Notes under the pieces: model-generated
The model's input: the letters and a program-made list of their open reading frames with translations, nothing else
The model's database searches: none
Told to the model about the DNA's origin: nothing
Program-made: the position numbers and the translations under genes
In this document: positions 755 to 19,836 of the stretch, piece by piece
How the letters are laid out: each line of letters starts with the position of its first letter
How positions within the stretch are numbered: the first letter of the stretch is position 1
IMG/VR virus record: IMGVR_UViG_3300007511_002249
Span: 1-64,000 of that record
Source of the DNA: a virus
Strand: one strand, 5' to 3'
Length of the DNA: 64,000 bases

Positions 755-759
755 CACCG

Positions 760-788
760 GTGTAACTCGGCGAGCTACCGGTTATAAT
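760..788 (+). promoter_or_regulatory. Repeated promoter, copy 3
   Basis: GTGTAACT at 760-767 and TATAAT at 783-788, spacer 17 nt. CTC-GGC-GAG forms a small inverted repeat in the spacer, and ACCGGT occurs on both sides (757-762 and 777-782). It drives the gene at 833, which has the ribosome-binding site GGGGAGG. Confidence 0.78.
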
Positions 789-832
789 AAAGACGTAATA
801 AGCCAAACAACATACCTGGGGAGGTAACAAAC

Positions 833-1249: not shown

Positions 1250-1255
1250 GACATC

Positions 1256-1390
1256 ATGGACAGACTAGAGGCAATACTCTTCGTCGTGCTAGGCATCACC
1301 GCTTCGGTGGTGCTTGGCATATTGGGCGAGGCGGTAGAAGAAAGAGTAAGAACCTGGTTGAGAGATCGGAAGTACGGAGATAAGAAGTGA
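1256..1390 (+). CDS. Tiny membrane protein, 44 aa
   Basis: The frame runs from ATG at 1256 to TGA at 1388-1390. Residues 5-24 (EAILFVVLGITASVVLGILG) form one hydrophobic helix, followed by a basic, charged tail (EERVRTWLRDRKYGDKK), so an N-out/C-in single-pass topology is likely. It lies 6 nt after the 833 gene, and its stop overlaps the next start (ATGA), which argues that it is translated. Function unknown; small membrane proteins in such positions may be holin-like or act on host membranes. Confidence 0.5.
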   Translation: MDRLEAILFVVLGITASVVLGILGEAVEERVRTWLRDRKYGDKK

Positions 1391-1521
1391 TGAGAAAGAT
1401 CGCGGCGAAGATCCTATTCCTACTAGCGAGAGTGTTCCTCAGTAGGGGGATGCTAGTGGGACAGTGGTGCCAGAACAAGGCCATACTCCTGCTCAGCGGT
1501 GTAAGTGCGCATCGCGAGTGA
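1390..1521 (+). CDS. Tiny hypothetical protein, 43 aa
   Basis: ATG at 1390 overlaps the stop of the upstream gene in an ATGA junction, and the stop is at 1519-1521. The product begins MRKIAAKILFLLARVFLSRG, an amphipathic/hydrophobic basic helix that could be membrane associated. The last codons overlap the fourth copy of the repeated promoter, so coding and promoter sequence are packed together. No family is recognised. Confidence 0.42.
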   Translation: MRKIAAKILFLLARVFLSRGMLVGQWCQNKAILLLSGVSAHRE

Positions 1522-1527
1522 TATAAT
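1499..1527 (+). promoter_or_regulatory. Repeated promoter, copy 4
   Basis: GTGTAAGT at 1499-1506 and TATAAT at 1522-1527, again with a 17-nt spacer from GTGTAA. It lies largely within the end of the preceding small gene and drives the gene at 1549. Confidence 0.72.
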
Positions 1528-1548
1528 GTCAGCGAATAGGAGATGATC

Positions 1549-1734
1549 ATGGAAGGCTTGTGGCTCTTAGCTGGATTCTTCGTGGTGTGGTTCGTGGTGG
1601 CGTTCTTACGGTCGTTCATCGTGTACGCGTGGAAGAACACGGTCAAGGTGTTCGGCGTGGTCGTGGGCATGTTCGGTGTCCTGGCCCTAGGTGTCGGTGT
1701 TGCCGCACTGCTCGCCGTGCTGGTCTTAGCCTAG
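1549..1734 (+). CDS. Small two-helix membrane protein, 61 aa
   Basis: The start at 1549 is preferred over the ATG at 1543 because AGGAG (1538-1542) stands at the right distance. Two hydrophobic segments are visible, about residues 3-28 (LWLLAGFFVVWFVVAFLRSF) and 36-60 (FGVVVGMFGVLALGVGVAAL), joined by a short basic turn (WKNTVK). Gly/Val/Ala-rich helices of this kind occur in holins and in small inner-membrane proteins, but no family can be assigned. It has its own copy of the repeated promoter. Confidence 0.6.
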   Translation: MEGLWLLAGFFVVWFVVAFLRSFIVYAWKNTVKVFGVVVGMFGVLALGVGVAALLAVLVLA

Positions 1735-1741
1735 TACCGAC

Positions 1742-1850
1742 AGAGGGTACTACGCAGGGGGCCTGGACGCAGGGCGCTAGGGGCGCCGGGCCCTTAGGGG
1801 GCTAGGCGCAGGGGGCCCCCGCAAACTGTGTAGGGGGTACCCGGGGTGGG
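1742..1850 (+). repeat. G-run-rich non-coding tract with CGCAGGG repeats
   Basis: The + strand carries about ten runs of three or more G within about 110 nt, including five-G runs near 1757, 1796, 1811 and 1833. CGCAGGG recurs at 1753-1759, 1768-1774 and 1807-1813. GGGGGCCCCC (1811-1820) is a perfect palindrome, and GGGCGC/GGCGCC/GGGCCC lie close by. The tract has the layout of G-quadruplex-forming DNA and differs sharply from the AT-rich sequence after it. No convincing gene is seen here. It could be a transcription block, a replication or packaging signal, or a recombination site. Confidence 0.6.
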
Positions 1851-1880
1851 CTTGGCCTAAGTCTAGACTCACTCTGCTCC

Positions 1881-2000
1881 AGAATTTTCCGGGAACTTTT
1901 TTCAATACTAAAAAGCCCATTTTCACAAAAATCTCTTCGAGAAAATTTTCGAAAACTTTTTCATGCCCGACATTCGCACGGTACAATTATTATAATTAAG
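1881..2000 (+). promoter_or_regulatory. AT-rich leader: hairpin, palindrome and TATAAT before the gene at 2026
   Basis: GGG-AA-CTTTTT at 1891-1901 can pair with AAAAAG-CCC at 1910-1918, forming a bulged hairpin. GAAAATTTTC at 1941-1950 is a perfect palindrome. TATAAT at 1991-1996 has a weak -35 candidate CCGACA at 1967-1972 (18-nt spacer); this is not the GTGTAA type. Between 1735 and 2025 there is no gene that can be supported. Confidence 0.4.
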
Positions 2001-2025
2001 CACATGTACTAGCAGGAGACATGTA

Positions 2026-2781
2026 ATGTACGATCTAAGAAAACCAGACGGTACCGGTCGGTTCACCTCAGTCGATGAAGCGATGCGTCACGCCCGGTGG
2101 GCGTTCCACTGCGCTAAGAAAGAACAAAGCAGCATCCCTCTCGATCCCACAAATGAAGCGATCCAGCTCTTGAGCCTTCACGGTATGTCAGGATACATGT
2201 ACCGTCACTTGCTCAATAACTTGTGTTCTAGGCAGGGAATCACTTACGGGGAGGTAGGTACGTGGAACGGAAGCACCTGGCTCTCAGCGATCTACAATAA
2301 TCCGCATATCACAGCGTGGACATGCGATAACTGGAGTGAGTTCGGTGGGCCTCAGGCGCAGTTTATTGAGAACTACAAGGTAGTTGGCCGATGGAAAGGC
2401 CAGGCAGATATTTTCAAGAACTCAAATCACAACTCACATGAAGAAGATTTCAGAAAGCTAGATTTCGGCATACATGGCCCAATCGACATCTACTTCTTTG
2501 ATGGGCCGCACAGCCGAGAAGACCAGAAGGATGGTATCGTCTTAGCGTGGGACGCTCTGGCGCCCATTTCTATCGTCTTAGTCGATGACTGGAACTTGCA
2601 GAAGGCGCGCGACGGCACATATATGGCATTTGATCAGGTAGGCGCTAACATTCACATGCAAGTCGAGGTTCACACGCCCCCAGACGGGTGGGTCGCATGC
2701 GATTGGTCTAAACAGACCAAGACAAGATTCGAAACGTCTGAATGGCACAACGGCGCAGCGCTGTTCGTAATCTCTAAGTAG
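2026..2781 (+). CDS. Class I methyltransferase-fold protein (Methyltransf_24-like), 251 aa
   Basis: Start ATG follows GCAGGAGACATGTA. Motif I of the SAM-binding fold appears as GEVGTWNGSTW (about residues 75-85), followed by an acidic residue in TAWTCDNW. A later strand carries DIYFFDGPHS (about 151-160), the D-G-x-H signature shared with the methyltransferase-fold genes at 25286 and 34055 in the glycan cluster. This supports a SAM-dependent methyltransferase fold; the substrate is unknown. It ends 8 nt inside the convergent gene on the other strand. A sugar or glycan substrate is possible by analogy with its relatives in this window, but it lies far from that cluster. Confidence 0.62.
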   Translation: MYDLRKPDGTGRFTSVDEAMRHARWAFHCAKKEQSSIPLDPTNEAIQLLSLHGMSGYMYRHLLNNLCSRQGITYGEVGTWNGSTWLSAIYNNPHITAWTCDNWSEFGGPQAQFIENYKVVGRWKGQADIFKNSNHNSHEEDFRKLDFGIHGPIDIYFFDGPHSREDQKDGIVLAWDALAPISIVLVDDWNLQKARDGTYMAFDQVGANIHMQVEVHTPPDGWVACDWSKQTKTRFETSEWHNGAALFVISK

Positions 2782-3370
2782 CACACACCGCTAGACACGC
2801 GAGACACAGCCCGAACACCAGTGTATTCACTACCCTCTCCTCAGTGCGCCTTAAGGCTCGCTTAGTACGGCGCTTCCATCGCCTTCTGCTCTTCTTCGTC
2901 GTGATTCTAAACATCCATGAGAACAGCTGCCAGAGTCCCGAGGTTGCTGCGCATATGCAGCGCCAGACCCAATCCACTAAAACCATCATCCCTTGACCGA
3001 ATGATTCTACGTGAGAAGGGTCTAACGCGCGCAAGTGTCGAGTGATCTCCGCGGGAGTCGTACGAAACCACTCTTTGCCGGGAACATCCGTTATATGCCT
3101 ACTCTTCAGTCTGCTATGCAAGGAGCGCTCTAATAGGGAGGCGTGTTCGCATGAGATCTCCAATAGGAGGATGGGGGTTTCCGCGTTAGACGCCCCGAGC
3201 TGCTGCGCTATCCTACGCTCCGCACTGCCTGCGCGCGTCATGCCCACCTTGATCGGATAGGGACCGGCTGCGCGTTGATACGAGGAGAATGTGTAAGCGT
3301 ACACCCGTTCGCTCCCGCGACCCATGCGCCTCGCGCCCTCTGTGATGACTCTGCGTTTCTTTTTTGCCAT
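2774..3370 (-). CDS. GIY-YIG-type (T5orf172/MUG113-like) protein with C-terminal membrane segments
   Basis: Residues 22-115 show the T5orf172/MUG113 branch of the GIY-YIG superfamily: VYAYTFSS, YPIKVGMT (38-45), an R-rich helix ERRIAQQ, LLEISC, ERSLHSRL (81-88) and GKEWFRTTPAEI (98-109). Family members are nucleases or nuclease-like proteins. Unusually, the C-terminal 80 residues carry two hydrophobic stretches (about 128-144 and 181-198) around a very basic linker (KKSRRRWKRRTKRALRR), suggesting membrane anchoring. It is the only minus-strand gene in the first 18 kb, is convergent with the 2026 gene (8-nt overlap), and may be a homing-like or anti-competitor nuclease. The nuclease activity is inferred. 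Confidence 0.7.
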   Translation of the reverse strand: MAKKKRRVITEGARRMGRGSERVYAYTFSSYQRAAGPYPIKVGMTRAGSAERRIAQQLGASNAETPILLLEISCEHASLLERSLHSRLKSRHITDVPGKEWFRTTPAEITRHLRALDPSHVESFGQGMMVLVDWVWRCICAATSGLWQLFSWMFRITTKKSRRRWKRRTKRALRRTEERVVNTLVFGLCLACLAVCAT

Positions 3371-3661
3371 GACTATATCTTACTGTGAGGGTGGACCGTT
3401 GTTTTAGCCTGAGAGGGGGTCTGAGAGGGTTGAGATTGGTTCGGGTTTGATTTAATGGGATGATTTGGGTGTATACGAAGCCCCTATAAAAAAATGTCTT
3501 TAAAAGTTACCGGGCGAGATCGGCATAAGATTTGACAAAATCTTTGAGATCTGACTGGTTTCCTCTCTCATCTAAAGATTGTATAATAATAGCAGCCTTT
3601 TTGCATATTTAAAATATGAAAACCTGCACTTTTCAAGTGCGCGTCGCCCAAGGGATTTAAA
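3371..3661. promoter_or_regulatory. Non-coding junction with hairpins and a TATAAT box
   Basis: About 290 nt without a supportable gene. AAGATTT-GACA-AAATCTT (3527-3544) is a perfect 7-bp hairpin. TATAAT at 3582-3587 is the likely -10 for the gene at 3662; its -35 is not clear. CATATTTAAAATATG (3604-3618) is an imperfect palindrome, and GCACTT-TTC-AAGTGC (3626-3640) is a 6-bp hairpin in the leader. On the minus strand AAGATATAGT (about 3371-3382) could be the -10 of the GIY-YIG gene. Base composition drops from GC-rich to AT-rich across this stretch. Confidence 0.5.
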
Positions 3662-4645
3662 ATGAAGATAAATGAAGTAGGCCTCCGAGCTATTATTGAA
3701 GAAGAACTCAAAGCTTTCAAAGATCGAAAAAACGTCGCCAACTCGAAACATCCTTCGGATGTGGAACCTGTTGAAGATCCAAATGTTAATGGAATACTCT
3801 CAGATGATTTTGAGCATGTCCCGGAAGATGTCCCCGCAGATGTTGAAAAACCGCAGGCGCGCGTCCAAGACTTGACACCGATCGTTAAAGAGCGCCGATA
3901 CAGCCTTCGTGCCTTATTGGAACAGGATCAAGGTGTTACCGCAGAAGATGATCTAGATGGGTGGGCCAAGCAGCCAAAAAATGCTAAAATAGTCCAGGCA
4001 TGGGCGGATGTCTTTAAAACAGCAGGAACTACGAAATCAGGAACTGACGATCAGCGCCATGAAACACATAAAATCTTAGCTGCCGTAATGGGACATCCAA
4101 AAATAGGTAAAGACGAGGATCTAACTACTGTTATGCACAAAATCCAACGGTGGTACCCAGGGCAAGAACGCGGTGAGGTTGAGATAGGTTATGACTTTGA
4201 TGAGCTTATTGCCGGCATTCAGAATGCAGCTACATATGCTGGGTATGCTACGGGCGGTAGAGATTCTGCAGGTGAAGTTGATATCAATGAAGCACGTTTT
4301 GCAGGCGGGCTTGGCTTTTCTAACGGTGGCATTTCAGAAGCACATTGTGGATGTGGTGCACCAGATATGAGTATGTCTCACGTCCCATCAGACCACGTTG
4401 TAATGGATCTTGCGGCCGCGGCCAAAGAAGATGAAGAAGTTCGCGATCTAGATCATAGCGATGACGAAGGATCAATGGCTCGATCTCAGTTACGACGTTC
4501 TGCTAAATACTCCCAGAAACTCGAACACATGATTCGTGAATCCGATGACCTTCCTGAGTGGGTTGAGTCCAAGATTACTAAAGCCTCGGACTATCTCGGT
4601 TCTGTATATCACTACTTGGATTATGAGATCAACGGGAAAAAATAA
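3662..4645 (+). CDS. Putative virion-internal protein with targeting-type N-terminus, 327 aa
   Basis: The N-terminus MKINEVGLRAIIEEELKAF resembles those of the genes at 4648, 6388 and 8649. It recalls the T4 capsid-targeting peptide (MK..., with an I/L-x-E cleavage site). A second similar stretch, RYSLRALLEQD, occurs near residue 80. The middle is acidic and low in complexity, with a CGCG motif near residue 240. The C-terminal 45 residues (LPEWVESKITKASDYLGSVYHYL) form an amphipathic module of the kind I associate with large marine phages, though I cannot name the family. Head-internal location is inferred from the tag only. Confidence 0.6.
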   Translation: MKINEVGLRAIIEEELKAFKDRKNVANSKHPSDVEPVEDPNVNGILSDDFEHVPEDVPADVEKPQARVQDLTPIVKERRYSLRALLEQDQGVTAEDDLDGWAKQPKNAKIVQAWADVFKTAGTTKSGTDDQRHETHKILAAVMGHPKIGKDEDLTTVMHKIQRWYPGQERGEVEIGYDFDELIAGIQNAATYAGYATGGRDSAGEVDINEARFAGGLGFSNGGISEAHCGCGAPDMSMSHVPSDHVVMDLAAAAKEDEEVRDLDHSDDEGSMARSQLRRSAKYSQKLEHMIRESDDLPEWVESKITKASDYLGSVYHYLDYEINGKK

Positions 4646-4647
4646 GC

Positions 4648-6387
4648 ATGAAGGTTTCTCTCTCCTCTCTTAATACCCTCCTCGAGCAGGTTGAGGAAAA
4701 AAACGATATCATACTTTCTGCAGACCGCGGAGATTTCCAGGATGTTATGAAGGGTGATCCCTTTGACTACGAGTATAGCCCGGAGAAAGATAATTTTACA
4801 GTTATCGGCCTTAATAGCAAGCGTGAAAGACTAAGTGATAAAAAAGTTGATCGCCTGGAGAAGGCTGTCGGGAAAAGCTTTGATTCTTCATCTAAAGCTT
4901 ACCAGACTTTATTTAAAAGGATGTCAAAAAAGAAGCCGTCAGGAGCAGTAAAATCATCTGCCGATAAAGATGAAAGAGCCAGAGCCCTTAGCAGACATAC
5001 GTCTAAATCTGTAAATGACAGACTTAGATCTCTTAACAGCGAGACAGATCCTGACTTTTTAAAAGCAGAAGCTAAGCGCCTTATATCAGGTACAGGAGTA
5101 GAGACTGCGGTCAAAAAACTTTACTTAAATGCTCTCACATCAAAGGCATGGTTTAATGACTTTAAAAGTGAGTCTCAAAAGGGATTTGATTCGTATAAAG
5201 GTGAGCTCAGCTGGAAGTCGACCGTGATGAAAGTAAAGATAGGAATCGTCTTAACTTTGTGGTTTATAGTCATGGCCGGCGCCTTTGTCCTTAGTGGTGG
5301 TACGACTGCTAAGGCGATGCCGGCTGCAGCTGTTTGGCTGTTCGAGATTTTACTGACCGCTTCCGATATGATTGCCGTTGAGGAGGCTGAGTCTTTATTG
5401 CAATCTTGGGATTCTGATGAATTTCAAGATTTCGGATTAGCACTATATCCTCTTTTTCTTCTTCCGGAAGTAAAAACTCGCAAAGATCTAAGAAGGCAAG
5501 TTGCGAACCTGATTGGAGATGACATTCTCCAGCCTTTCGCTTATATTGAATCACCTAGTTTATTCGCAGCGTCGGGTACCGGTTCTTACGAGAAAGAATC
5601 AGATGCTACTATTCTCTACGATGAGATGGATGGCTTTACCTCAAAGGGAGCTTGGGGAGTTGAAGGTTCTTCCGGAGAAGCTATTGTAGCAGATATCATA
5701 AAAAGACGTTCTGGAAAGCTAGGTGGAAAAAACGACTTGCACAAGCTCTATGACGAGTTCAGCAAGGCCGTAGAGAAGAGAGAAGGACCTCGGGTTCCTG
5801 AGCGCCGCGGGGATACTATATACTATCACGATCTTATCGACTGGATAGAGGATGAGACTAAGGGTCTTTGGGGCGGTACTCAGTTTGGTGGTGAAGGAAA
5901 ACTACAAAACGTTGCCGGGATGGTTCGAAAAGCCCTTAGAGATAATAAAAAAGAAAGATACTCGCCGGGAACGATTCCGGGAGAAACATCCGATGATGCT
6001 GCCACGCTTTACACAGCAATGGCAGGAGAAGATATACAGCTTATACCTGGATGGCTTGAAGCTTGGGGCACAGATGAAGATGCCATCGATGGAGTGCTAG
6101 ATCGTCGAAAAAGTGATATTCCTGAGCTCTATGCAGAGTTTAATACTTACCTTGCCAGAAAGGGTGAAGCCGATGATGGCGACTTGATTGACTGGCTAAA
6201 AGGTGAAGGTGAGACAAGGTCTGCACAGATAGTTATTAAAGCTCTCAAAGACGAGGGCATGGAAAGATATAAACCTGGTGAACGCCGAAAGTCATCAAAG
6301 AGAGATTCTGAACGCCGAAATGCATTGCGAACATTGACCCCTGCTGAATTAGATGACTTCAGGGACACCGGGGACGGAGATACATAA
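4648..6387 (+). CDS. Large putative virion protein with tandem annexin-like modules, 579 aa
   Basis: The N-terminus MKVSLSSLNTLLEQVEE is of the same tag type as its neighbours. Two hydrophobic stretches (about residues 195-235: ...GIVLTLWFIVMAGAFVLS..., then ...AAAVWLFEILLTASDMIA) may cross a membrane. The C-terminal half holds two tandem modules ending ERYSPG and ERYKPG. The second contains WGTDEDAIDGVLDRRKSDI and then ELYAEF...GDLIDWL, close to the annexin repeat pattern (G-T-D-E-x-x-I, then Y..EF...DL...L). This similarity is visible by eye; calcium or lipid binding is not implied. It lies 2 nt after the 3662 gene and directly before the 6388 gene. Confidence 0.6.
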   Translation: MKVSLSSLNTLLEQVEEKNDIILSADRGDFQDVMKGDPFDYEYSPEKDNFTVIGLNSKRERLSDKKVDRLEKAVGKSFDSSSKAYQTLFKRMSKKKPSGAVKSSADKDERARALSRHTSKSVNDRLRSLNSETDPDFLKAEAKRLISGTGVETAVKKLYLNALTSKAWFNDFKSESQKGFDSYKGELSWKSTVMKVKIGIVLTLWFIVMAGAFVLSGGTTAKAMPAAAVWLFEILLTASDMIAVEEAESLLQSWDSDEFQDFGLALYPLFLLPEVKTRKDLRRQVANLIGDDILQPFAYIESPSLFAASGTGSYEKESDATILYDEMDGFTSKGAWGVEGSSGEAIVADIIKRRSGKLGGKNDLHKLYDEFSKAVEKREGPRVPERRGDTIYYHDLIDWIEDETKGLWGGTQFGGEGKLQNVAGMVRKALRDNKKERYSPGTIPGETSDDAATLYTAMAGEDIQLIPGWLEAWGTDEDAIDGVLDRRKSDIPELYAEFNTYLARKGEADDGDLIDWLKGEGETRSAQIVIKALKDEGMERYKPGERRKSSKRDSERRNALRTLTPAELDDFRDTGDGDT

Positions 6388-8649
6388 ATGAAAATAAAAC
6401 TAAATCTTAGCTCGCTGAATGAAGAACTAGAAACAAGCAAAGACCCACTTAACGAGGTACTAAGGCAATTAGGCAGCTTTTGGAAGCACCTCTCTACGGC
6501 TGGTAAATTAGTAAGACTTGACGACTTTGCAGACGTGGTTAGTAGATCAAGAAGAGTACTCGATAATCTTGAACTACCTAGAAAATTGGCCGCGGCAGGA
6601 CTTGACAGTAAAGTCATTTTTAGAAATATTTTTGATTCTAACCCACAGCTTGAAAAACAAATGAATGAAGTTATTGCATCTGTTGTGGATCAACTAAGAA
6701 GAGGAGAAGCTGTCCCTCTCGGGGATGGAAGAACTTCTACAGGAGCTGCACGGATCTCTTTTGACGGAAGCGTAGATTTCCCGGAAGGCCTAATTGATGC
6801 TTCTGGAAAGCCTATTCCTAGCGGCCCTACCCCCATTAAAATTTACATGGCAATCGACAAAGACGGAGTTATTGAGGGATCTGCAGGTATCGGTGCAACA
6901 GGACGACGTCGTTCAATGAAGTCGTGGAAAGAAAGCGGAGGAAAAGCAAGTTCGGGTACCCGGGCGGCAACCCGAAGAGGTGCTGATGCTGCCGACCAGA
7001 CCTCTTCCCTACACCCCGAGGATCTAAAGTGGTTGGAGGAGAATAACATCGATAATGCGTCTGCGAGAGAGTTCTATGAAAAGAAGGTGCTTAGTATCAG
7101 AACGACAATTGCATCGGACCCGGCGGCCGCCGAGGTTTTGATTCCTTATTTGGAAGCAATTCAAACAATTGTTAAAAGAATACAAGATGGCAATGTGGTG
7201 GTTCTAAACGCAGATCAGACCAAGAAGATCTTCAACAAGATGGAAAACAAGATAGTTCAAGCAGCCGAAGATGCTGGCAAGATTAAGCCTGGTGAAGAAT
7301 TATATCTTCCTCTAGTAGATGAGGCCGGAAGGGTAGTCATTAATCAAGATGGGCAAACGGCGATCATTGTCTTGGGAGAGGGTGAAACCGTTTATGCAAC
7401 TGGTAGAGTAGCAGATATTAGATACACTAAGTCGGGACAGTCCAGGCTCTCAGGAGGAGGAGAGCTGAACGTGCTCAAGCTAGCTGACGAGCTCGGGGAG
7501 ATGGTACAGGCTATGGAAAACCTTAATAATGCTAACAGAACTTTTTATCAAGCGTGGAAAAGATTTCAAGAACGATGGGAAGCGGCCGGAGACGACAGGT
7601 GGCGTAAATTTGATATTCTTCTTAAATGGAGGGAGGAGGCCTGGGAAGGGTATAAGAATATTTTTAATCAAGAGTTTAAATTATGGATGGTACCCTGGGC
7701 AGATGATGCAATCAAGTTCAGTGATCTACCTGCCTGGAAGAAAGCTATGGCCGGTGTTGATTTCTTTGGCGGGTTTGGTGGGACAAAGATGTTCGCGGCT
7801 GGGTTGACCTCGATCCTACGATCATCAGGAAAAGTGTCCAGATCTTATGGGTTAGGTGCATCAAGAAGTGCTGCAAAGCTATTTCTAGTGATACAGGGTA
7901 GCTACTACGCGATGATGACTTTCTGGATTATAACGTACATCTTGTCAGACAGCCTCGAGGAAGAGAGAAAAAACTATGAATTTGTCATGAATCCTCCGGA
8001 GGGTGCTGATGCTCGAAAACTTCTAATTGAGTACCTCCATAGCCTAACGGATTTTTATAAAAAACATAATGAGGTCATGCCAAAATGGAATGTGGATATG
8101 TCTCTACAGCAACTTCGATATGCTGTCAAAGAAACTCATAAAAATTATTTAAAGATTGTTGAGGATAAGTCCGGGGCTTCTCCAGCGGAAATATATTCCT
8201 TTCACCAAAATGTTGGTATTCCATTAATTCCTGATAGTGTCTGGGATTTGGTAGAGAATTATTATGGTGATGTTGAAAATATTGCTGATCTTTCTCCTGA
8301 AGATCGAAAGATAGCTAATGATGAACATCGGGAAGCAGGAAGCGCTCTTGATAAAATCCAGCAAACTTCTGATGATGCTCTCGAAAAGGTTCGAGGGCTA
8401 GGGGTGGATTTCGGTGTAGGAAAAGAAAAGGCAAAGAGGGGTCAGAAACCTAGGCCTAAGATTGATCCTAAAGCTAAAACACCAACACAGGGAACACCAA
8501 GCGATCCGGGCACACAGGATAGCTCTTTAGGAGATCTATCTGGGATTGATGATTCCCTTTTTGAAATCTTTAACACTGGAAAACCTATAAGTATTAAAGT
8601 TAAAAGCTCCTCGCCGCGGGTGAGAGTTAATATTACGGAGAAGAAGTAA
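6388..8649 (+). CDS. Large putative virion/ejection-type protein, 753 aa
   Basis: It begins MKIKLNLSSLNEELETSKD, the third member of the tag set. The body is helical with charged linkers. A hydrophobic segment near residues 498-525 (LFLVIQGSYYAMMTFWIITYI) could span a membrane. The C-terminus is low in complexity and Pro/Lys-rich before a short basic beta-like tail. No enzyme motif is recognised. A large, partly membrane-spanning protein with a head-targeting-like N-terminus would fit an internal protein ejected with the DNA; this is inference. It abuts the upstream gene and its stop overlaps the ATG of the next. Confidence 0.55.
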   Translation: MKIKLNLSSLNEELETSKDPLNEVLRQLGSFWKHLSTAGKLVRLDDFADVVSRSRRVLDNLELPRKLAAAGLDSKVIFRNIFDSNPQLEKQMNEVIASVVDQLRRGEAVPLGDGRTSTGAARISFDGSVDFPEGLIDASGKPIPSGPTPIKIYMAIDKDGVIEGSAGIGATGRRRSMKSWKESGGKASSGTRAATRRGADAADQTSSLHPEDLKWLEENNIDNASAREFYEKKVLSIRTTIASDPAAAEVLIPYLEAIQTIVKRIQDGNVVVLNADQTKKIFNKMENKIVQAAEDAGKIKPGEELYLPLVDEAGRVVINQDGQTAIIVLGEGETVYATGRVADIRYTKSGQSRLSGGGELNVLKLADELGEMVQAMENLNNANRTFYQAWKRFQERWEAAGDDRWRKFDILLKWREEAWEGYKNIFNQEFKLWMVPWADDAIKFSDLPAWKKAMAGVDFFGGFGGTKMFAAGLTSILRSSGKVSRSYGLGASRSAAKLFLVIQGSYYAMMTFWIITYILSDSLEEERKNYEFVMNPPEGADARKLLIEYLHSLTDFYKKHNEVMPKWNVDMSLQQLRYAVKETHKNYLKIVEDKSGASPAEIYSFHQNVGIPLIPDSVWDLVENYYGDVENIADLSPEDRKIANDEHREAGSALDKIQQTSDDALEKVRGLGVDFGVGKEKAKRGQKPRPKIDPKAKTPTQGTPSDPGTQDSSLGDLSGIDDSLFEIFNTGKPISIKVKSSSPRVRVNITEKK

Positions 8650-9708: not shown

Positions 9709-10164
9709 ATGCCAGAGCTACCCACAGCTATACTGAATAAGTTGTCTCAGATCGAGTCCCTGCTTAGTTCTTCACACGTTCTTAATGGTGGCTTTGAAAA
9801 ACTGGTTCAAGACGTTCAGCATACTAATGATCAGCTCGGCGAAGTCAAAGAATCCTTAGAAGCTATGAATAACACCATTAATGATCCGGAGAGTGGGGTT
9901 CGATCCCGTGTAAGAGACTTAGAGGCAGAATCTCAGAGGCGTTGGCTATTTGTCCAAGAAGCCCAGCATAAGATGGATGAATTTGACGATCTCCTCTCAT
10001 GGAAAAGAGATGTTGAAGACAAGGTAAAAACTATTGATCTTCATAACTTAGAGCTAGATAGGCTCAAAATATGGCAGTCCAATCTTAGTAAATTGCAATG
10101 GCTTTTCGGTTCGACACTCGCCATCCTTATAATTCAAGCGCTTTTTGGGGTATTATTACCTTAA
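9709..10164 (+). CDS. Coiled-coil protein with C-terminal membrane helix, 151 aa
   Basis: Start ATG follows GTGAGGAGAATAAA, a strong ribosome-binding site. Residues 1-125 are helical with heptad-like spacing (LNKLSQIESLLSS..., then LGEVKESLEAMNNTI). The final 22 residues (LFGSTLAILIIQALFGVLL) form one transmembrane helix. This plan resembles small phage membrane proteins of the XhlA type, which also join a coiled coil to a C-terminal helix, but the resemblance is architectural only. It precedes the DUF444 gene by 6 nt. Confidence 0.58.
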   Translation: MPELPTAILNKLSQIESLLSSSHVLNGGFEKLVQDVQHTNDQLGEVKESLEAMNNTINDPESGVRSRVRDLEAESQRRWLFVQEAQHKMDEFDDLLSWKRDVEDKVKTIDLHNLELDRLKIWQSNLSKLQWLFGSTLAILIIQALFGVLLP

Positions 10165-10170
10165 GCGACC

Positions 10171-11340
10171 ATGAGTACTTTTAGAAAACACAAATCTATA
10201 GCAGATCGATCAGCCACCGATCGATCGCGCCATAAGCAAAAAATTGAAAAAGCTTTAAAAGAAGGTATTCGAAATATCGTTGCCGAAGAGTCCATTATTG
10301 GCCAAGATGGTAAGAAAAAAGTTCGGATTCCTGTAAAGGGCATAAAAGAATACCAATTTATCTACGGTGACAACTCTAAAAAGGTTGGTTCCGCACCGGG
10401 CAAAGATATTCACAGAGGTCAAAAGATTGCTGAGGATAAGGAAGGCAAGAAATCAGGTAACAAGCCTGGGGATAAACCAGGTGAGGAGTTCTACGACGTA
10501 GAGATTACATTAGAGGAGCTTGCAGAATACCTCTTTAGTGATCTTGAGCTTCCTGATCTAGATAAGAAGAAATTTAAGTTTCTGTCGTCCGACACTTTTA
10601 GAAGAAAAGGTGTTCGGCCTAAAGGTATTAGGCCGCGCCTCTCTAAGAAAGAGACTCTTAAACAGAAGATTCGTCGAAAGAAAATGTCTCAAAAAGCTGG
10701 GACCTTTAACGAAGAAGAAGATGAAAGATTTCCTTTTCATGAAGATGATCTTCGATACAAGCATTTCAAAGTAAAAGAAACAGAGATCTCATCTGCAGCA
10801 ATATTTTTCATTATGGATATCTCAGGTTCAATGAGTACTGAAAAGAAGTACATTGCCCGGAGCTTCTTCTTTCTTCTCTACCAGTTTTTGCGACACAAAT
10901 ATGATAATGTTGAAGTTGTATTTATTGCTCATACAACCACGGCAAAAGAAGTCAGTGAGAATGATTTCTTCAGTCTAGCACCATCCGGTGGAACATTTAT
11001 CTCACCTGCACTTGATCTTACACTCGAGGTCGTTGAGAAAAGATATCACCCCAGCAATTGGAATATATACTCTTTTCATTGTTCAGATGGGGATAACTGG
11101 TCAGAAGATGAGGAAAAAGCTTTCAATGCTTCTAAGAAACTTAAGTCAATATCACAGCTTTACGCTTTTTGTGAAATAGATCCTAACGGTGAGTCATCAC
11201 AGTGGCGCCAGAATAATAATTCTAGAATGTGGGAAATTTATCAACCACTTGTAGACAAAGCTTTTAAGACTTTAAAGATGGTTAATGCTAAAGATATCTG
11301 GCCTTCATTTAAGAAGCTTTTTGGTGGGAGATCAGAATAA
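10171..11340 (+). CDS. yeaH: DUF444/YeaH-like protein with a von Willebrand A-type domain, 389 aa
   Basis: The N-terminal 130 residues are basic and charged, with the low-complexity GKKSGNKPGDKPGEEFYDVEI segment typical of YeaH/YhbH, followed by the helical ELAEYLFSDLELPDL. A vWA fold follows, with the metal-site motif DISGSMS at 216-222 and a later TFISPAL. In bacteria YeaH/YhbH is encoded with PrkA kinase and SpoVR, and the trio takes part in stress, stationary-phase or sporulation programmes. Here the stop codon overlaps the spoVR start by 1 nt. The family assignment is strong. Slightly shorter than the roughly 420-430 aa bacterial proteins. Confidence 0.88.
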   Translation: MSTFRKHKSIADRSATDRSRHKQKIEKALKEGIRNIVAEESIIGQDGKKKVRIPVKGIKEYQFIYGDNSKKVGSAPGKDIHRGQKIAEDKEGKKSGNKPGDKPGEEFYDVEITLEELAEYLFSDLELPDLDKKKFKFLSSDTFRRKGVRPKGIRPRLSKKETLKQKIRRKKMSQKAGTFNEEEDERFPFHEDDLRYKHFKVKETEISSAAIFFIMDISGSMSTEKKYIARSFFFLLYQFLRHKYDNVEVVFIAHTTTAKEVSENDFFSLAPSGGTFISPALDLTLEVVEKRYHPSNWNIYSFHCSDGDNWSEDEEKAFNASKKLKSISQLYAFCEIDPNGESSQWRQNNNSRMWEIYQPLVDKAFKTLKMVNAKDIWPSFKKLFGGRSE

Positions 11341-12647
11341 TGGGATGGACATTTGAAGAACTCCATGCATGGGACGAAAAAATTGTTAAGCTAGCCAAGA
11401 AATATAACCTTGACTGGTATCCAATTGACTACGAAGTTTGCGACTATCATGATATGATCGGTTACATGTCATACATTGGAATGCCCACTCACTACCAGCA
11501 TTGGTCGTACGGCAAGTCCTTTGAACGAACACACACCATGTATAACCTCGGCATGGAGGGATTACCCTACGAGATGATCATCAATAGCGATCCCTCGATA
11601 TCGTATTTGATGACTGAGAACCCTCTTCCTTTGCAAGTTCTTATCATGGCACACTGCGTTGGTCACTCCGACTTCTTCAAAAATAATCGGATGTTTAAGC
11701 ATACCGATGCAGCTAATGTGATATCAAGGTTTCGTAATTCTGCAAAGAGGATCAAGAAATATTCTGACAATCCTCACATCGGTGTTGAAGCTGTTGAAAA
11801 AGTAATAGATGCATGTCATGCTTTAAAGTATCATAACTATCGCGAGTTTGGAATTAGTCGAAAATCTCATCAAGAAATAAAGCAAGCCTATGTTGATATT
11901 GCTAACTTTAAACCTGAGAAACTCCCAGAAGATTTTGATATCAATAAGATCCCATTAGAGCCTGACTATGATATTCTTGGATTTATAGGAAAACATTCTA
12001 GAAATTTAGAGGACTGGGAAAGAGATATTATTGATATTGTTCGTCAAGAATCAATGTACTTTATGCCGCAGGCAATGACAAAAATAATGAATGAAGGATG
12101 GGCATCATTTTGGCACTATAAAATAATGTCAGAGCTTGATCTCCCGCAAGAGTTTCACTTGTCTTTTCTTAAATTTCATAATCAGGTTCTCCGGCCAATG
12201 GTAGGAAGAATTAATCCCTATCATCTAGGATTCACAATTTTTAAATGGATTGAGAAAAATAAAGGGCTAGAGGAATGTTTTATAGCAAGGTCTTCTCATA
12301 ATGACGAATCTTTTATCAGGTCATATCTCAACAAAGAAATATGTGAAGAACTTAATCTTTTCTCTTACTCTAAAAAGAAAAAAGAATGGACGATAGACGA
12401 TATATCGGATCAAGATGGCTGGAAACAGATTAGATCCGATCTCATAAAAAATGTAGGCCTTAACTCTTTGCCAAATATTTATGTCAAGGAGCTTCAAAAG
12501 GATCAAACGCTGGTTTTAGAACACGAGCATGATGGTAGGGATCTAGATCTAGATTACGCACACAATGTATGTGATCATCTTTTAGACCTGTGGGGCGATG
12601 ACTTTAAATTCTTTACTGTTATCGAAGATGAGCCTTTCGAGATTTAA
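11340..12647 (+). CDS. spoVR: SpoVR family protein (YcgB-like), 435 aa
   Basis: Hallmarks of SpoVR are present: W.FEEL..WD..I...AK...LD.YP..YE.. near the N-terminus, then MPTHYQHWSYGKSFERTHTMY (about 49-69), YEMIINSDPSISYLM, and MAHCVGHSDFFKNN. The NEGWASFWH motif (about 257-265) supplies the conserved Glu/His cluster. Bacterial members are about 500 aa, so this one is somewhat short at the C-terminal end. The biochemical role of SpoVR is not known; it is genetically linked to PrkA and YeaH. The gene is coupled to yeaH by an overlapping start, and prkA follows after 46 nt. Presence in a phage is notable. Confidence 0.92.
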   Translation: MGWTFEELHAWDEKIVKLAKKYNLDWYPIDYEVCDYHDMIGYMSYIGMPTHYQHWSYGKSFERTHTMYNLGMEGLPYEMIINSDPSISYLMTENPLPLQVLIMAHCVGHSDFFKNNRMFKHTDAANVISRFRNSAKRIKKYSDNPHIGVEAVEKVIDACHALKYHNYREFGISRKSHQEIKQAYVDIANFKPEKLPEDFDINKIPLEPDYDILGFIGKHSRNLEDWERDIIDIVRQESMYFMPQAMTKIMNEGWASFWHYKIMSELDLPQEFHLSFLKFHNQVLRPMVGRINPYHLGFTIFKWIEKNKGLEECFIARSSHNDESFIRSYLNKEICEELNLFSYSKKKKEWTIDDISDQDGWKQIRSDLIKNVGLNSLPNIYVKELQKDQTLVLEHEHDGRDLDLDYAHNVCDHLLDLWGDDFKFFTVIEDEPFEI

Positions 12648-12656
12648 ACTCCTACA

Positions 12657-12673
12657 TATTAGTGTGTATTATT
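12657..12673 (+). promoter_or_regulatory. Promoter-like TATTAGTGTGTAT element before prkA
   Basis: TATTAGTGTGTATTATT stands 20 nt before the prkA start. Closely similar sequences lie at 44508-44525 and 45371-45391, each in a short intergenic gap ahead of a gene. The shared core is TA(T/A)TAGT followed by G-T-A-T and an AT-rich -10-like end. Confidence 0.45.
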
Positions 12674-12693
12674 GAAAGTGTGGAGCATCAAGA

Positions 12694-14625
12694 ATGACTA
12701 AATCTAAATTTGCTGATTTAATTAGCCAGCAGAGATCTGAAAAGAAGGATGTATCCTTTAAGGGTACTTTTCTAGAATATCTGGAAGTTGTTGAGAAAAA
12801 TCCAAAGATTGCAGCCTTGGCTCATAGAAGACTTTTTGATGTTCTTGCAGAAGACGGTATTGAAGTACTAGATGAAACAGATGAGAGATGCCGCCGCCTA
12901 TTTGATAGTGAAAAGACAAAGACTTACAACTATTTCCAACCGCATTTCTTCGGCATGGAAAGATCTCTAGCAAAAGTGATGAGATTCCTCAGTTCTGCTG
13001 CTATGAAGGGTGAGGAAAGTCGACAAGTACTTCTACTCCTAGGCCCGGTCGGCGCCGGAAAATCTGCCCTGATCGAACACATTAAAAGAGGCCTAGAAAG
13101 AGCAGAGCATATCTATCATTTAGATGGCTGCCCAATCAGAGAAGAACCTCTACATCTCGTACCTCGCTCTCTCCGCAGCAAGTTTGAGGAAATGCTCGGC
13201 ATTAAAATAGAAGGCGATCTTTGCCCTGTATGTCGACACCGACTTTTAGAAGAGTTTGGTGGGAAATATGAGAATTTTCCTGTAAAACAATCCTCTTTCT
13301 CAATTAGAGGTAGAAGAGGTGTAGGTGTTGTACCCCCTGTCGATGCCAACACTCAAGATACTTCAATTCTTATAGGCTCAGAGGACATCTCGAAGTTGGA
13401 TCTGTATCCCGAGGATGATCCCAGAGTGCTTTCCTTGAACGGGGCCTTTAATGTTGGTAACAGAGGTATCGTTGAGTTCGTAGAGGTCTTTAAGAATGAG
13501 ATTGAATTTCTACACACAATGATCACGGCAACACAGGAGAAGGCAGTTCCCTCTCCTGGTAAAGGTGCCATGATTTACTTTGACGGTGTCATCCTTGCAC
13601 ACTGCAACGAAGCGGAATGGAACCGATTTAAATCCACACACACAAATGAAGCTATACTTGATCGAATCGTCAAGGTTAATGTCCCGTACTGCCTAGAACT
13701 TGACGAGGAGGTAAAGATTTACCAGAAGATGTTGAAGATGTCTGATTTCGATGCCCACATTGCACCACACACACTTGAGGTTGCATCGATGTTTGCAGTT
13801 ATGTCTCGATTAAAACCTTCTGGTAAAGTTGATCCTTTGGTTAAGATGAAGATTTATAACGGGGAGGACATCATCGAAAAGGGAAGAGTCAAGAAGGTCG
13901 ACATCAAAGATCTTCGTGAGGAATCCCGCGATGAAGGTATGACCGGTATCTCAACACGCTTCATCACCAAAGCGATCGATTCAGCGCTTTCTGATTCTGA
14001 TAGAAATATGGTTACCCCAATTTCAGTTAGAGATTCCCTTATCAAGCAAGTCAAAGAACAGATTATCGATGAGGAAGCTAGAGAGCGCTATCTCCAATAC
14101 CTTCAAAAAGATCTTCATGAAGAATACTTAAGGATCTTGGAGAAGGAGATTACCAAGGCTTTTGTAAGTGCTTACGAAGAACAAGCAGAGGCCCTTTTTG
14201 ATAACTACCTTGATCATGCCGAGGCTTATGTTAATAAGTCAAGAGTAAAAGATAAGGTGACACGTGAAGAGATGGAGCCAGATGAAAACTTCATGAAATC
14301 CATCGAGGAAAATATTGGCATTACAGGCTCTGCTAGAGACGGATTTAGATCTGATGTTACTACTTACATGTTTACTCTTCTTCGCGCTAAAAAGAAGATT
14401 GACTGGAAAGCTTATGGCCCTCTCAAGGAAGCCATTGAGAATAAACTGATGTCATCTGTAAAAGATATGTCCAGAATTGTTACAAAGTCAAAATCCCGCG
14501 ATAATAAACAGCAAAAGAAATACGGTGATATGGTGTCTACGCTTATCGAAGACTACGGCTACAATGAAGATTCTGCAGAAGAAGTAATTAAATTTGCGGC
14601 CAATAATCTCTGGAGAGATGGTTAA
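12694..14625 (+). CDS. prkA: PrkA-type serine protein kinase (AAA+), 643 aa
   Basis: The length equals that of the bacterial PrkA/YeaG proteins (about 640 aa). The N-terminal AAA domain has Walker A GPVGAGKS (117-124), followed by the PrkA-specific stretch around HLVPRSLR and a CPVCRHRL motif (about 177-184). An acidic Walker B-like strand is MIYFDGVILAHCNEAEWNRF (about 292-311). The C-terminal kinase-associated region starts around residue 400. In E. coli and Bacillus PrkA acts with YeaH and SpoVR; phosphorylation and, more recently, protease-like activities have been described for the family. All motifs look intact. Likely role: reprogramming host stress or starvation signalling during infection (inference). 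Confidence 0.93.
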   Translation: MTKSKFADLISQQRSEKKDVSFKGTFLEYLEVVEKNPKIAALAHRRLFDVLAEDGIEVLDETDERCRRLFDSEKTKTYNYFQPHFFGMERSLAKVMRFLSSAAMKGEESRQVLLLLGPVGAGKSALIEHIKRGLERAEHIYHLDGCPIREEPLHLVPRSLRSKFEEMLGIKIEGDLCPVCRHRLLEEFGGKYENFPVKQSSFSIRGRRGVGVVPPVDANTQDTSILIGSEDISKLDLYPEDDPRVLSLNGAFNVGNRGIVEFVEVFKNEIEFLHTMITATQEKAVPSPGKGAMIYFDGVILAHCNEAEWNRFKSTHTNEAILDRIVKVNVPYCLELDEEVKIYQKMLKMSDFDAHIAPHTLEVASMFAVMSRLKPSGKVDPLVKMKIYNGEDIIEKGRVKKVDIKDLREESRDEGMTGISTRFITKAIDSALSDSDRNMVTPISVRDSLIKQVKEQIIDEEARERYLQYLQKDLHEEYLRILEKEITKAFVSAYEEQAEALFDNYLDHAEAYVNKSRVKDKVTREEMEPDENFMKSIEENIGITGSARDGFRSDVTTYMFTLLRAKKKIDWKAYGPLKEAIENKLMSSVKDMSRIVTKSKSRDNKQQKKYGDMVSTLIEDYGYNEDSAEEVIKFAANNLWRDG

Positions 14626-14639: not shown

Positions 14640-15965
14640 ATGAGATCCCGAGTAGAGAGAAAAAATCTAAAGAAGGAATCAAGACAGTTCTTAAAAAACC
14701 TTGAAGCTCTTACTCGTATTCAAGAGCGCAACTCAAAGGTTGCATTTTTAATGTCTAATTCCCCAAGAACTTCTGGAAGCATTCTTCTTTCTTTGCTTTC
14801 TTATTCACCTGCAAACAGAACTGAAAATATTTTCAAGCAGATCGTGATTAATCACGTCTTAAAATGTGAAAAAACATCTGCAATGTCATCTTCTACTATG
14901 ATTAAAATGCTTATAGACCTAACCAGGAAATCTGATAATCTAAGCAGCATGGGTATCAAAGATAAAGAAAAATCTATAAGAAAAGATGTAGATGACATAT
15001 TTGATGCCATTCAGGAAAAAATGTCTAGGCCAACTTTGAGAACCTTAGAGGATTACCTAAAAATAAATTTTGACAAAACAACATCTTCTCTTGTTTTGGA
15101 GTCTCTAAAATTATCAGGAATGTCAGGAAAGTTATCTTTTGAGCATAGCAATATTCCTAATCCCATTATAGAATCTAATGCCAGCTATATCTTTGAAATA
15201 GAACCAGACCCTAACCTTCTTTTACAGTCAGACTTCATGTGGGCAAAAAAAGATGTTTCTGTCTTGTGCATAGAAGGCTTTATAGAAAAAGTTTCCGAAA
15301 TAGATGTAATACTTTCTTCATTAGCAGAAAGAAAAGGTAATGCAGTCATTATCTGTCTCGGATACTCTCCTGAAGTTGTCTCAACTATTATAGCGAACAA
15401 CGCCCGCGGAACATTTAATGTAATGCTTTGTAAGCCCAGCCAAGAAGAAGAAGCCATAAATGATATTTTCGACATGTCAGCCGCATCAGGATCATGCTTC
15501 TACGGATTCCAGACAGGTACAATATCTACTTCATTTTCTCCCGAGCACCTAGATAGCACAAATGAAGAGGTCGTAATAACTGAGAATAAGATAAGCATCA
15601 AAAGCTCTATATCCAAGAATTCTGCTAACACAAGGGCAGAAAAGATAAGAGAGCAGCTCGGTGAGAGTGATTTAAAAGATGACTACCTTAAAAGAAGAAT
15701 AACCTCGCTTACATCCAACCAGGTTAAAATAAATCTGCCTGAAAAAACGTCACAGGAAAAATTTAGTCAAATTGAGAAAATTGATACTGCACTTAGATGT
15801 GCCAATGCGATTACTAGATTTGGGATAATCGATATTCCGGAATCAAGCATTATACCAGGTAGCGGACGACAGATAGCATCTTCAATTTACATTGGATGCA
15901 AATATGGATATGAATTATTTAAGCAGTTATCTTCTATCGACACTGCGATCGTTTTAGATGACTAA
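14640..15965 (+). CDS. Divergent GroEL-like chaperonin, probably unable to hydrolyse ATP, 441 aa
   Basis: The chaperonin order can be followed end to end. Residues 101-131 (SSMGIKDKEKSIRKDVDDI...MSRP) align with GroEL AAGMNPMDLKRGIDKAV...LSVP. Residues 205-262 align with the apical domain, with IEKVSEIDVILSSLAERKGN, VVSTIIANNARGTFNV and the GroEL-like RGTLNV site. Residues 332-410 match IRQQIEE...VEDAL...VAGGG as IREQLGE...IDTAL...IPGSG. Nucleotide motifs are degraded: GPKGR becomes SPRTSG (41-46), DGTTT becomes MSSST (82-86), and the GroEL D398 position is Thr. The final equatorial segment is also shortened (GroEL is about 548 aa). It follows prkA by 14 nt. Either a scaffold/decoy subunit or a highly specialised phage chaperonin. 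Confidence 0.75.
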   Translation: MRSRVERKNLKKESRQFLKNLEALTRIQERNSKVAFLMSNSPRTSGSILLSLLSYSPANRTENIFKQIVINHVLKCEKTSAMSSSTMIKMLIDLTRKSDNLSSMGIKDKEKSIRKDVDDIFDAIQEKMSRPTLRTLEDYLKINFDKTTSSLVLESLKLSGMSGKLSFEHSNIPNPIIESNASYIFEIEPDPNLLLQSDFMWAKKDVSVLCIEGFIEKVSEIDVILSSLAERKGNAVIICLGYSPEVVSTIIANNARGTFNVMLCKPSQEEEAINDIFDMSAASGSCFYGFQTGTISTSFSPEHLDSTNEEVVITENKISIKSSISKNSANTRAEKIREQLGESDLKDDYLKRRITSLTSNQVKINLPEKTSQEKFSQIEKIDTALRCANAITRFGIIDIPESSIIPGSGRQIASSIYIGCKYGYELFKQLSSIDTAIVLDD

Positions 15966-16202: not shown

Positions 16203-16679
16203 ATGAAAAGTGCTGAGAAGCATTTAATTCAATGCCACTGTATTCTGCCCCAGTACAGAGGCAAGCCAGACCCTGTTTTTCATAAGTTTACAGTTTTTTC
16301 TATTCTTGAAAACGATAAGGTAGTTGAAAAGCTGGCACAGTGTCCAAACTGCGGCGTCATTCACAAAGTTGTAGATGTTTGCAAAAGTGAGATTGCGTCA
16401 GGAAAAGATGAAACAAAGTCTATCATTGAAATTAAAGACATTAAGTTCGGATTACCACCTCGCCTAGTTGAAATTCTAGAATCCTATAGCTGTGATCTTC
16501 CTGCATGGGAGCATGCACAGTTTATATTAGATGAAAAAAGGTGGGGAGAAAAAGTAAGAGTTTCCTACGAGGAAAATGAGGATGATACTTTTGCAAAGTT
16601 TCTGGTATTTGTAGATGAAGACCAGTATAGGATATCTTCGTCATCAAGTCAAAGCTTTTTAGGAGATAGTGATGAGTGA
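16203..16679 (+). CDS. Hypothetical protein with a Cys/His metal-site-like N-terminus, 158 aa
   Basis: Cys/His pairs lie in the first 60 residues: HLIQCHCILPQY (about 7-18) and CPNCGVIHKVVDVC (about 47-60). Together they could hold one zinc ion in a ribbon-like fold. The remainder is an alpha/beta region with LVEILESYSCDLPAWEHAQFIL and an acidic Ser-rich tail. I do not recognise the family; the combination looks like a conserved phage protein. The end overlaps the next gene by a few codons. Confidence 0.58.
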   Translation: MKSAEKHLIQCHCILPQYRGKPDPVFHKFTVFSILENDKVVEKLAQCPNCGVIHKVVDVCKSEIASGKDETKSIIEIKDIKFGLPPRLVEILESYSCDLPAWEHAQFILDEKRWGEKVRVSYEENEDDTFAKFLVFVDEDQYRISSSSSQSFLGDSDE

Positions 16680-16926
16680 AATAAAGAAATACGGTGAAAA
16701 TGATACTGATAAATGGGTAAAAGAAATGTCTATGTCTCGAGAGATAGTCCTAGAAATTCTTAGGCATGGCGTAAGTCAATCCCAGATAAATCAGATAATT
16801 GGCCTCCTGGCTCTTGAGCTTGAGAATAGAGAGCTTCTAACAGGATATAGAGGCATCTATAAGATGTCCCAAGGTGAAACAGTCGAGGGTGTTAAATCTA
16901 CCTCAAAGATTATTCTAGATAGCTAA
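16672..16926 (+). CDS. Small helical hypothetical protein, 84 aa
   Basis: The start at ATG 16672 is preferred over GTG 16669 because AGGAG (16661-16665) lies at the usual distance. It overlaps the 3' end of the preceding gene by 8 nt. The middle reads EIVLEILRHGVSQSQINQIIGLLALELENR, a probable helix-turn-helix-like or helical hairpin region. The C-terminus is polar. No family is recognised. Confidence 0.55.
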   Translation: MSEIKKYGENDTDKWVKEMSMSREIVLEILRHGVSQSQINQIIGLLALELENRELLTGYRGIYKMSQGETVEGVKSTSKIILDS

Positions 16927-18522: not shown

Positions 18523-19836
18523 GTGAAAAAGACATTTATTCTTGATACTAACGTTCTTCTCTATGATGCAGAATGTCTGCTGTCCTTTGATGATAATAAT
18601 ATAATCATTCCTCTAATTGTTTTAGAAGAATTAGATGATCATAAGCGCAGACCTGACGAAGTAGGAAAAAATGCGCGAAAATCAGTTAGGCTTCTCGATA
18701 AGTTTAGAGAGAAAGGATCCTTAAGCGAAGGGATCGAGCTGGATAGCGGCGGAACGCTTACTATCCTGGGAAGCGAACAGATTACATGTCCTTTCCCAGC
18801 AGACTTAGATAAAAGCTCTGTAGATAACGTAATTCTTGCGATGACAAAATGCCTCCAAGATACTCGAGAAGAAAAAGTAATACTTGTAACAAAGGACATA
18901 AACGTAAGAGTGAAATGTGATGCCCTGGGAATCACATGTGAAGATTTCAATAAGCACAAGATAATCGACAAATCAGAAGGGCTTTACACAGGGGTAAGGA
19001 GGCTAAGTGCGCCGCAATCCTTGATTGACAAAGTCTATACAGATCGAGAGATACCTGTCCCTGAAGAAATCATTGGTGAAGAACTTTACGCAAACGAATT
19101 CATAGTAATGAAAGATGAAAGTACCGGTCAGGGCTCAGCAATCGTTCGACATATTAAGAAATCTAATACGCTCAGACTTATTCCAGAAATAAAAAGCTCC
19201 TGGGGCTTAATTCCTAGAAACAAGGAGCAGAAATTTTCATTTGATATACTTTTCGATGACAATATTAAGCTCATTACGTTGGTAGGAAAAGCCGGAACTG
19301 GGAAAACGTTGCTTGCAGCATCTGCAGCACTAGAGCAAGCATTCTCTAAAGACGGTAAGTATAAAAAGGTGGTTATCTCCCGCCCCGTCCAGGCTGTAGG
19401 CAAAGATATCGGATATCTCCCGGGAGATATCTACGATAAGATGGCACCCTGGATTGCACCAATAAGGGACAATCTCCGGTATCTTTTCGGAGACGATAAA
19501 GACACGCTGGACATGTACATTGAAAGCGGAAAGATAGAGATTGAAGCCATAACTTACATCAGAGGAAGATCGATCTCCGACGCGATTATAATAATTGATG
19601 AAGCACAAAATCTAACAACTCATGAGCTTAAGACAATCATCACCCGGGTAGGTGAAAACACAAAGATAATATTGACAGGTGATGTTGATCAAATCGATAA
19701 TACATACCTGGATGCCACATCAAACGGCTTAAGTTACACGGTGGAAAAATTTAAAGAATATGATATTTCTGCACATGTAACGCTCTTAAAGGGTGAAAGA
19801 TCAGAGCTGGCAAGCTTAGGCGCTGAAATCCTATAA
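18523..19836 (+). CDS. phoH: PhoH2-type protein: PIN nuclease domain fused to PhoH ATPase, 437 aa
   Basis: Start GTG 18523 behind GACGGAGACATT. Residues 1-140 are a PIN domain: FILDTNVLLYD (5-15), VLEELD (33-38), and DNVILAM (101-107), with the acidic residues needed for metal binding. Residues about 225-437 are the PhoH ATPase with Walker A GKAGTGKT (255-262) and Walker B IIIIDEAQN (355-363). PhoH2 proteins in bacteria are RNA-unwinding and RNA-cleaving enzymes, and PhoH-family genes are common in marine phages. All motifs look intact. A role in host RNA turnover during infection is likely but inferred. Confidence 0.93.
   Translation: MKKTFILDTNVLLYDAECLLSFDDNNIIIPLIVLEELDDHKRRPDEVGKNARKSVRLLDKFREKGSLSEGIELDSGGTLTILGSEQITCPFPADLDKSSVDNVILAMTKCLQDTREEKVILVTKDINVRVKCDALGITCEDFNKHKIIDKSEGLYTGVRRLSAPQSLIDKVYTDREIPVPEEIIGEELYANEFIVMKDESTGQGSAIVRHIKKSNTLRLIPEIKSSWGLIPRNKEQKFSFDILFDDNIKLITLVGKAGTGKTLLAASAALEQAFSKDGKYKKVVISRPVQAVGKDIGYLPGDIYDKMAPWIAPIRDNLRYLFGDDKDTLDMYIESGKIEIEAITYIRGRSISDAIIIIDEAQNLTTHELKTIITRVGENTKIILTGDVDQIDNTYLDATSNGLSYTVEKFKEYDISAHVTLLKGERSELASLGAEIL

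Follow-up and report, generated by a model that had tools for sequence, protein, structure and literature searches.

A DUF444–SpoVR–PrkA trio in rearranged gene order is carried by a widespread lineage of environmental phages

Introduction

PrkA, YeaH (DUF444) and SpoVR are widespread in bacteria, and their biochemical job is unexplained. In this study, we analysed a stretch of 64,000 nucleotides (hereafter the window), which comprises positions 1 to 64,000 of the linear IMG/VR virus record IMGVR_UViG_3300007511_002249 (75,551 bases) and in which genes for all three proteins stand side by side. The locus raises the question of whether a phage genuinely owns this bacterial module, whether such ownership is new, and what the module could do during infection.

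Results

Architecture of the trio

A first-pass annotation of the window, made from the sequence alone, had placed the three genes on one strand in the order yeaH-spoVR-prkA, and open reading frames and Pfam matches bore this out to the base (Table 1). The encoded proteins of 389 (DUF444), 435 (SpoVR) and 643 (PrkA) residues each have full-length Pfam matches far over the curated cut-offs, and one PHROGs family already exists for each of them (phrog_19072, phrog_35217 and phrog_22605). The genes are adjacent and co-directional, as is characteristic of the module, with base 11340 shared by the DUF444 stop and the SpoVR start, 46 bases between SpoVR and PrkA, and 14 bases between PrkA and the next open reading frame, which encodes a GroEL-like protein. 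Based on this tight spacing, the trio and the GroEL-like gene probably form one transcription unit. The gene directly upstream of the trio, whose homologues were found in 12 fetched loci, mainly of close relatives, is probably part of the same unit.

Table 1. Features of the window at and around the trio
Feature	Coordinates	Strand	Evidence or remark
151-aa protein with hydrophobic C-terminal stretch (probable membrane anchor)	9709..10164	+	6-base gap to DUF444
DUF444 (YeaH), vWA/MIDAS domain	10171..11340	+	PF04285, E 1.2e-111; MIDAS residues in 48/48 sequences; vWA fold in AF2 model
SpoVR	11340..12647	+	PF04293, E 2.2e-126, plus SpoVR_C; AF2 model
PrkA, AAA+ ATPase with PrkA C-terminal domain	12694..14625	+	PF08298 (AAA_PrkA), E 1.6e-147; PF06798, E 1.3e-81
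Divergent, truncated GroEL-like protein	14640..15965	+	Family profile against PDB GroEL, E 1e-35
158-aa conserved neighbour	16203..16679	+	22/32 representative contigs
85-aa conserved neighbour	16669..16926	+	19/32 representative contigs
tmRNA (ssrA), tag ANDDFDIYAIAA	17899..18220	+	ARAGORN; Rfam RF00023, 137.8 bits, E 7.7e-54
PhoH-like protein with PIN domain	18523..19836	+	PF02562, E 2e-50; PF13638, E 1.5e-30; homologues in 15/32 representative contigs

The trio is borne on phage DNA

A contig of 235,681 bases (IMGVR_UViG_3300009108_000751), which over a compared stretch of 12.8 kb shares 99.96% identity with the window, encodes a T4-like large terminase, TerL (phrog_2, E 8.5e-49), which places the trio on a contig with a phage hallmark gene rather than in a host flank. 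TerL was also found in all 17 of the searched lineage contigs of at least 114 kb, and each of ten lineage contigs checked had a single SpoVR. The alternative, that the trio came from recent contamination by host DNA or from a chimeric assembly, has a real example in Enterobacter phage LAU1 (MN688132.1), whose YeaG/YeaH genes (positions 1–3308) lie right at the edge of the record, group with those of E. coli and are probably host flanking DNA. For the window, however, about 110 distinct viral trios form one clade, share an order that is absent from adjacent cellular trios, have phage neighbours and occur on contigs that also encode TerL. Trees, gene order, the number of contigs and TerL thus rule out host contamination, to which we leave next to no probability, and the first-pass proposal that the trio is phage-borne stands.

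Two further observations concern the window as a whole. A megablast search of its first 24 kb against known phages returned no match, and within positions 1–4000 its G+C content falls from about 0.53 to 0.40, a shift also present in the 235-kb contig, which is G+C-rich through the further 6 kb fetched upstream.

A widespread lineage with its own gene order

Scans of viral sequences found at least 142 (PrkA) and at least 119 (SpoVR) stretches related to the window, and the trio was complete in 154 fetched loci, representing about 110 distinct sequences. All 154 of the complete trio loci from these first two scans have the order DUF444-SpoVR-PrkA, whereas the order was PrkA-DUF444-SpoVR in 59 of 59 adjacent, co-directional trios of bacterial genomes. 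The window trio therefore departs from the usual, although not strictly defining, cellular order in having prkA last, not first. Since both scans order their matches by how closely they resemble the window, the 154 loci represent one lineage and not independent events. Among bacterial sequences, two Paenibacillus loci have a separate and reversed SpoVR-DUF444 pair. An apparent cellular exception, binned as Methylococcaceae TMED69, is a jumbo phage contig in a bacterial genome bin (NHDW01000006.1, 305,838 bases), as it falls inside the phage clade and has a phage terminase.

Phylogenies of PrkA and SpoVR against host and phage homologues, a check that the first-pass annotation had proposed, resolved the environmental phage sequences as a single clade, as did that of DUF444 (SH-aLRT 100, 99 and 99 for the PrkA, SpoVR and DUF444 trees, respectively). 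In the PrkA tree the neighbours of this clade are clostridial and Flammeovirga-type proteins, to which the window PrkA is 57–63% identical; the SpoVR tree gives the clade a different, weakly supported sister group. The window trio thus belongs to a widespread, unreported lineage of environmental phages with rearranged gene order.

Two wider scans added many viral contigs with the trio in the cellular order (67 and 47 loci), and a T4-like terminase profile matched 17 of 30 of these contigs, some weakly. In a larger, faster tree, viral clades were found within all three PrkA subfamilies, which indicates that the trio has been captured at least three times. A few of the wider-scan contigs resemble flanking DNA of a host or prophage, and we claim no count above three.

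Known phage carriers

Whether the trio had been reported in a phage was a question raised by the first-pass annotation, and the answer is that it is not novel to phages: phiYS40, MN1 and Lalka8 carry it. The Thermus phages, together with three uncultured phages, rule out the window as the first trio in a phage. In the Thermus phages phiYS40, phiLo, MN1 and Lalka8 the order is DUF444-SpoVR-PrkA, as in the window, and in GenBank the entry for phiYS40 (DQ997624) names SpoVR and a serine kinase, next to which lies a homologue of DUF444. However, their PrkA is about 33% identical to that of the window and belongs to another subfamily, near the Bacillus type, so the Thermus-phage trio represents a separate capture; their SpoVR is very divergent. 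A common origin of the two sets of trios, as the shared order might indicate, was unsupported, with PrkA and SpoVR of the Thermus phages in different parts of the trees from those of the window clade, on long branches. The uncultured phages LR745206, LR756504 and LR756511 (595–636 kb) likewise have the trio on phage DNA, but in the cellular order PrkA-DUF444-SpoVR, and two of the three are YeaG-type, the uncultured phages of about 635 kb being placed with that type in the tree. Ralstonia jumbo phage RsoM2USA has SpoVR (ORF28) and PrkA (ORF30) annotated close together (PMC8504454); it differs from the window in that their best matches are bacterial (Vibrio, Alcanivorax) and that no DUF444 gene is reported between ORF28 and ORF30.

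What is new in the window clade is the order DUF444-SpoVR-PrkA and what lies downstream, namely a GroEL-like gene that is degenerate and, for several of the relatives, also a phage tmRNA. No paper was found on the trio as a conserved phage module, on its permuted order or on its repeated capture, which is weak evidence of novelty because subscription journals and preprints were mostly outside the search.

Conserved residues and purifying selection

The first-pass annotation had described the MIDAS and Walker A motifs as intact and had named loss of catalytic residues as grounds against its reading. In alignments that took in both phage and cellular sequences these residues were found to be conserved. 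The DUF444 MIDAS is complete, with D216, S218, S220, T275 and D306 present in 48 of 48 sequences, and in PrkA the Walker A motif GPVGAGKS, E261/E264, N305 and D323-R324 are conserved in 11 of 11, three of which have alanine for one Walker A glycine. SpoVR residues H54, H105, H109, E252 and H259 are invariant in all 47 aligned sequences. Pairwise dN/dS against the nearest relatives, to which the comparison was restricted as synonymous sites are unsaturated there, was 0.02–0.05 for each of the three genes, demonstrating that they are under strong purifying selection.

Likely biochemistry

A solved structure labelled "serine protein kinase" (9xip, E 5e-101) matches PrkA over its whole length, and the next matches of the PrkA profile are the Lon AAA domain and then, weakly and partially, RavA (E 0.0025). 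Against Pfam, PrkA had neither a protein-kinase domain match, as would be expected of a Hanks-type Ser/Thr kinase, nor a match to the MoxR family, of which it is therefore not classed as a member. Judged from its sequence, PrkA probably works like the MoxR AAA+/vWA systems from outside that family.

The first-pass annotation had viewed the trio as a kinase AAA+ system that could steer host starvation or dormancy, and its two halves fared differently: the AAA+ part is upheld by PF08298 and Walker A, whereas Pfam and the literature cast doubt on the kinase part. That PrkA is a protein kinase which reprograms host starvation physiology or dormancy by phosphorylation would fit its family name, a 1996 report of in vitro phosphorylation by B. 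subtilis PrkA (as cited in PMC13001217) and the effect of YeaG on survival of nitrogen starvation (PMC4664914). However, Bacillus PrkA is described as an AAA+ protein with no detectable kinase activity, B. anthracis PrkA having negligible kinase and protease activity in vitro and a C-terminal part without a kinase P-loop (PMC13001217). The negligible activity of the Bacillus homologue and the lack of a kinase-domain match together make the "kinase" label doubtful, and we consider a role by phosphorylation distinctly unlikely.

The AF2 model of DUF444 (pLDDT 76) is good in the vWA part only, and it matches the MIDAS domain of Rea1/MDN1 and NorD of NorQD. The MIDAS domains of Rea1/MDN1 and NorD serve AAA+ ATPases. 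SpoVR was modelled with high scores (pLDDT 93, pTM 0.90), and its model had no fold match in the PDB. A known enzyme fold for SpoVR was therefore rejected, the zincin-like matches being non-significant; its invariant His/Glu residues could form a metal site.

Neighbourhood of the trio

Of 32 representative phage contigs, 25 have the GroEL-like gene downstream of prkA. The product has retained the apical and intermediate parts of GroEL, whereas the GDGTT ATP motif is missing, as is most of the C-terminal equatorial domain (about 100 residues). Further downstream is the conserved 158-aa neighbour, for which no PHROG or Pfam match was found. The tmRNA lies 3.3 kb downstream of prkA in the window, and a further 15 fetched loci also have a tmRNA, with varied tags, in the vicinity of the trio. 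Among 22 large contigs, 12 had a tmRNA over Rfam's cut-off, often far from the trio, and the link between tmRNA and trio is therefore lineage-specific. These data suggest that some members of the lineage have a protein quality-control island made up of the trio, the GroEL-like gene and the tmRNA, a linkage that is not universal.

Genes of several other kinds occur in this region. Upstream of the trio, some relatives have protease genes of ClpP-like (head maturation) or trypsin-like type (L103:1326–2054, L050:1671–2528); the ClpP-like proteases were rejected as part of the module, since their annotation is that of head maturation proteases and few contigs have them beside the trio. A FtsZ/tubulin-like family is present in the lineage, near the trio in some members (L073:11257–12516; 188171–189205 in the 235-kb contig). 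Positions 19858–47839 of the window hold a long run of sugar and surface-glycan genes, including glycosyltransferases, a GDP-mannose 4,6-dehydratase, a carbamoyltransferase, a methyltransferase and an APH-like kinase.

Discussion

Our analyses showed that, in this lineage, the three genes are complete and borne by phages; each forms a single phage clade and is subject to purifying selection, and their order does not vary. The reading we prefer, to which we give about an even chance, is that phages have long harboured the trio as a working version of the bacterial stress module, in which an AAA+ motor, a MIDAS adaptor and SpoVR keep the stressed or starved infected cell suited to the phage. PrkA would form an ATP-driven AAA+ ring that acts as a remodelling motor, and the MIDAS domain of DUF444 would be its adaptor, gripping the client via a metal-bridged acidic residue by analogy with the vWA proteins of MoxR-type and midasin ATPases. 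SpoVR, with its orphan fold and invariant His/Glu residues, may be a third subunit or the client-facing effector. By remodelling proteins, such a machine could hold the stressed or starved cell in the state that the phage needs. The genes next to it, one GroEL-derived and, in several relatives, one for tmRNA, suggest a part in protein quality control while a long infection runs its course. In nitrogen-starved E. coli, metabolism is quiesced by yeaGH (PMC10954441, PMC4664914), from which the phage copy may, by analogy, help infection of starved cells.

The same neighbourhood also bears on a rather unlikely alternative, namely that phage proteins rather than host physiology are the target of the trio, which would be a machine for virion assembly or protein folding. 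In two of the four Thermus phages the trio is near terminase or portal genes: that of Lalka8 (3633–7848) lies between portal/minor head genes and TerL, and that of phiYS40 is three genes from TerL. In addition, a GroEL-like gene follows prkA in the window lineage, and the proteases annotated for head maturation are upstream in some relatives. However, TerL is tens of kb away in the window lineage (114 kb versus about 28 kb in the 235-kb contig), linkage to head genes is not general, and cells retain the trio without any virion. We regard it as very unlikely that the trio is a device for anti-defence or superinfection. Its presence in several phage lineages would suit such a role, and mutations in yeaG swept in T7-selected E. 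coli populations, a weak hint, but yeaG swept without phage as well (PMC10044975) and among the neighbouring families examined none was recognised as a defence or anti-defence gene.

A sporulation role was rejected, as the trio has nothing specific to sporulation and the module is present in many groups not known to sporulate. This touches on the marine virome in which spoVR was the most abundant sporulation-type gene (PMC8940887): genes earlier read as sporulation genes are better read as part of a stress machine, one shared by many bacteria for which no sporulation is known.

At least three acquisitions by large phages, together with three genes kept side by side under strong purifying selection, argue for one functional unit that is useful to a phage within a single infection. 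Tentatively, and with the odds somewhat against it, large phages may have taken up the entire AAA+/MIDAS/SpoVR machine more than once and made it part of a quality-control island, along with a tmRNA and a GroEL-derived protein, that controls the proteome of the starved host. If this is true, phage genetics could reveal the job of a conserved, unexplained bacterial module, and as cultured carriers exist in the Thermus phages, the function of the trio is testable by that route.

Comparison with known systems

The closest counterpart of the window trio is the bacterial PrkA-YeaH(DUF444)-SpoVR module (YeaG/YeaH/YcgB of E. coli, PrkA of Bacillus, and operons of Clostridia and alphaproteobacteria), with which it shares the same three proteins, full domains, catalytic residues and tight co-directional clustering. 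It differs from that module in being phage-borne, in its permuted order and in its place beside GroEL-like, tmRNA and PhoH genes. The MoxR/midasin systems RavA-ViaA, NorQ-NorD and Rea1 resemble the trio in pairing an AAA+ ATPase with a MIDAS vWA partner, whose gene stands in the same operon in the trio. In contrast to those systems, PrkA has a C-terminal domain of its own, and SpoVR is without a counterpart there.
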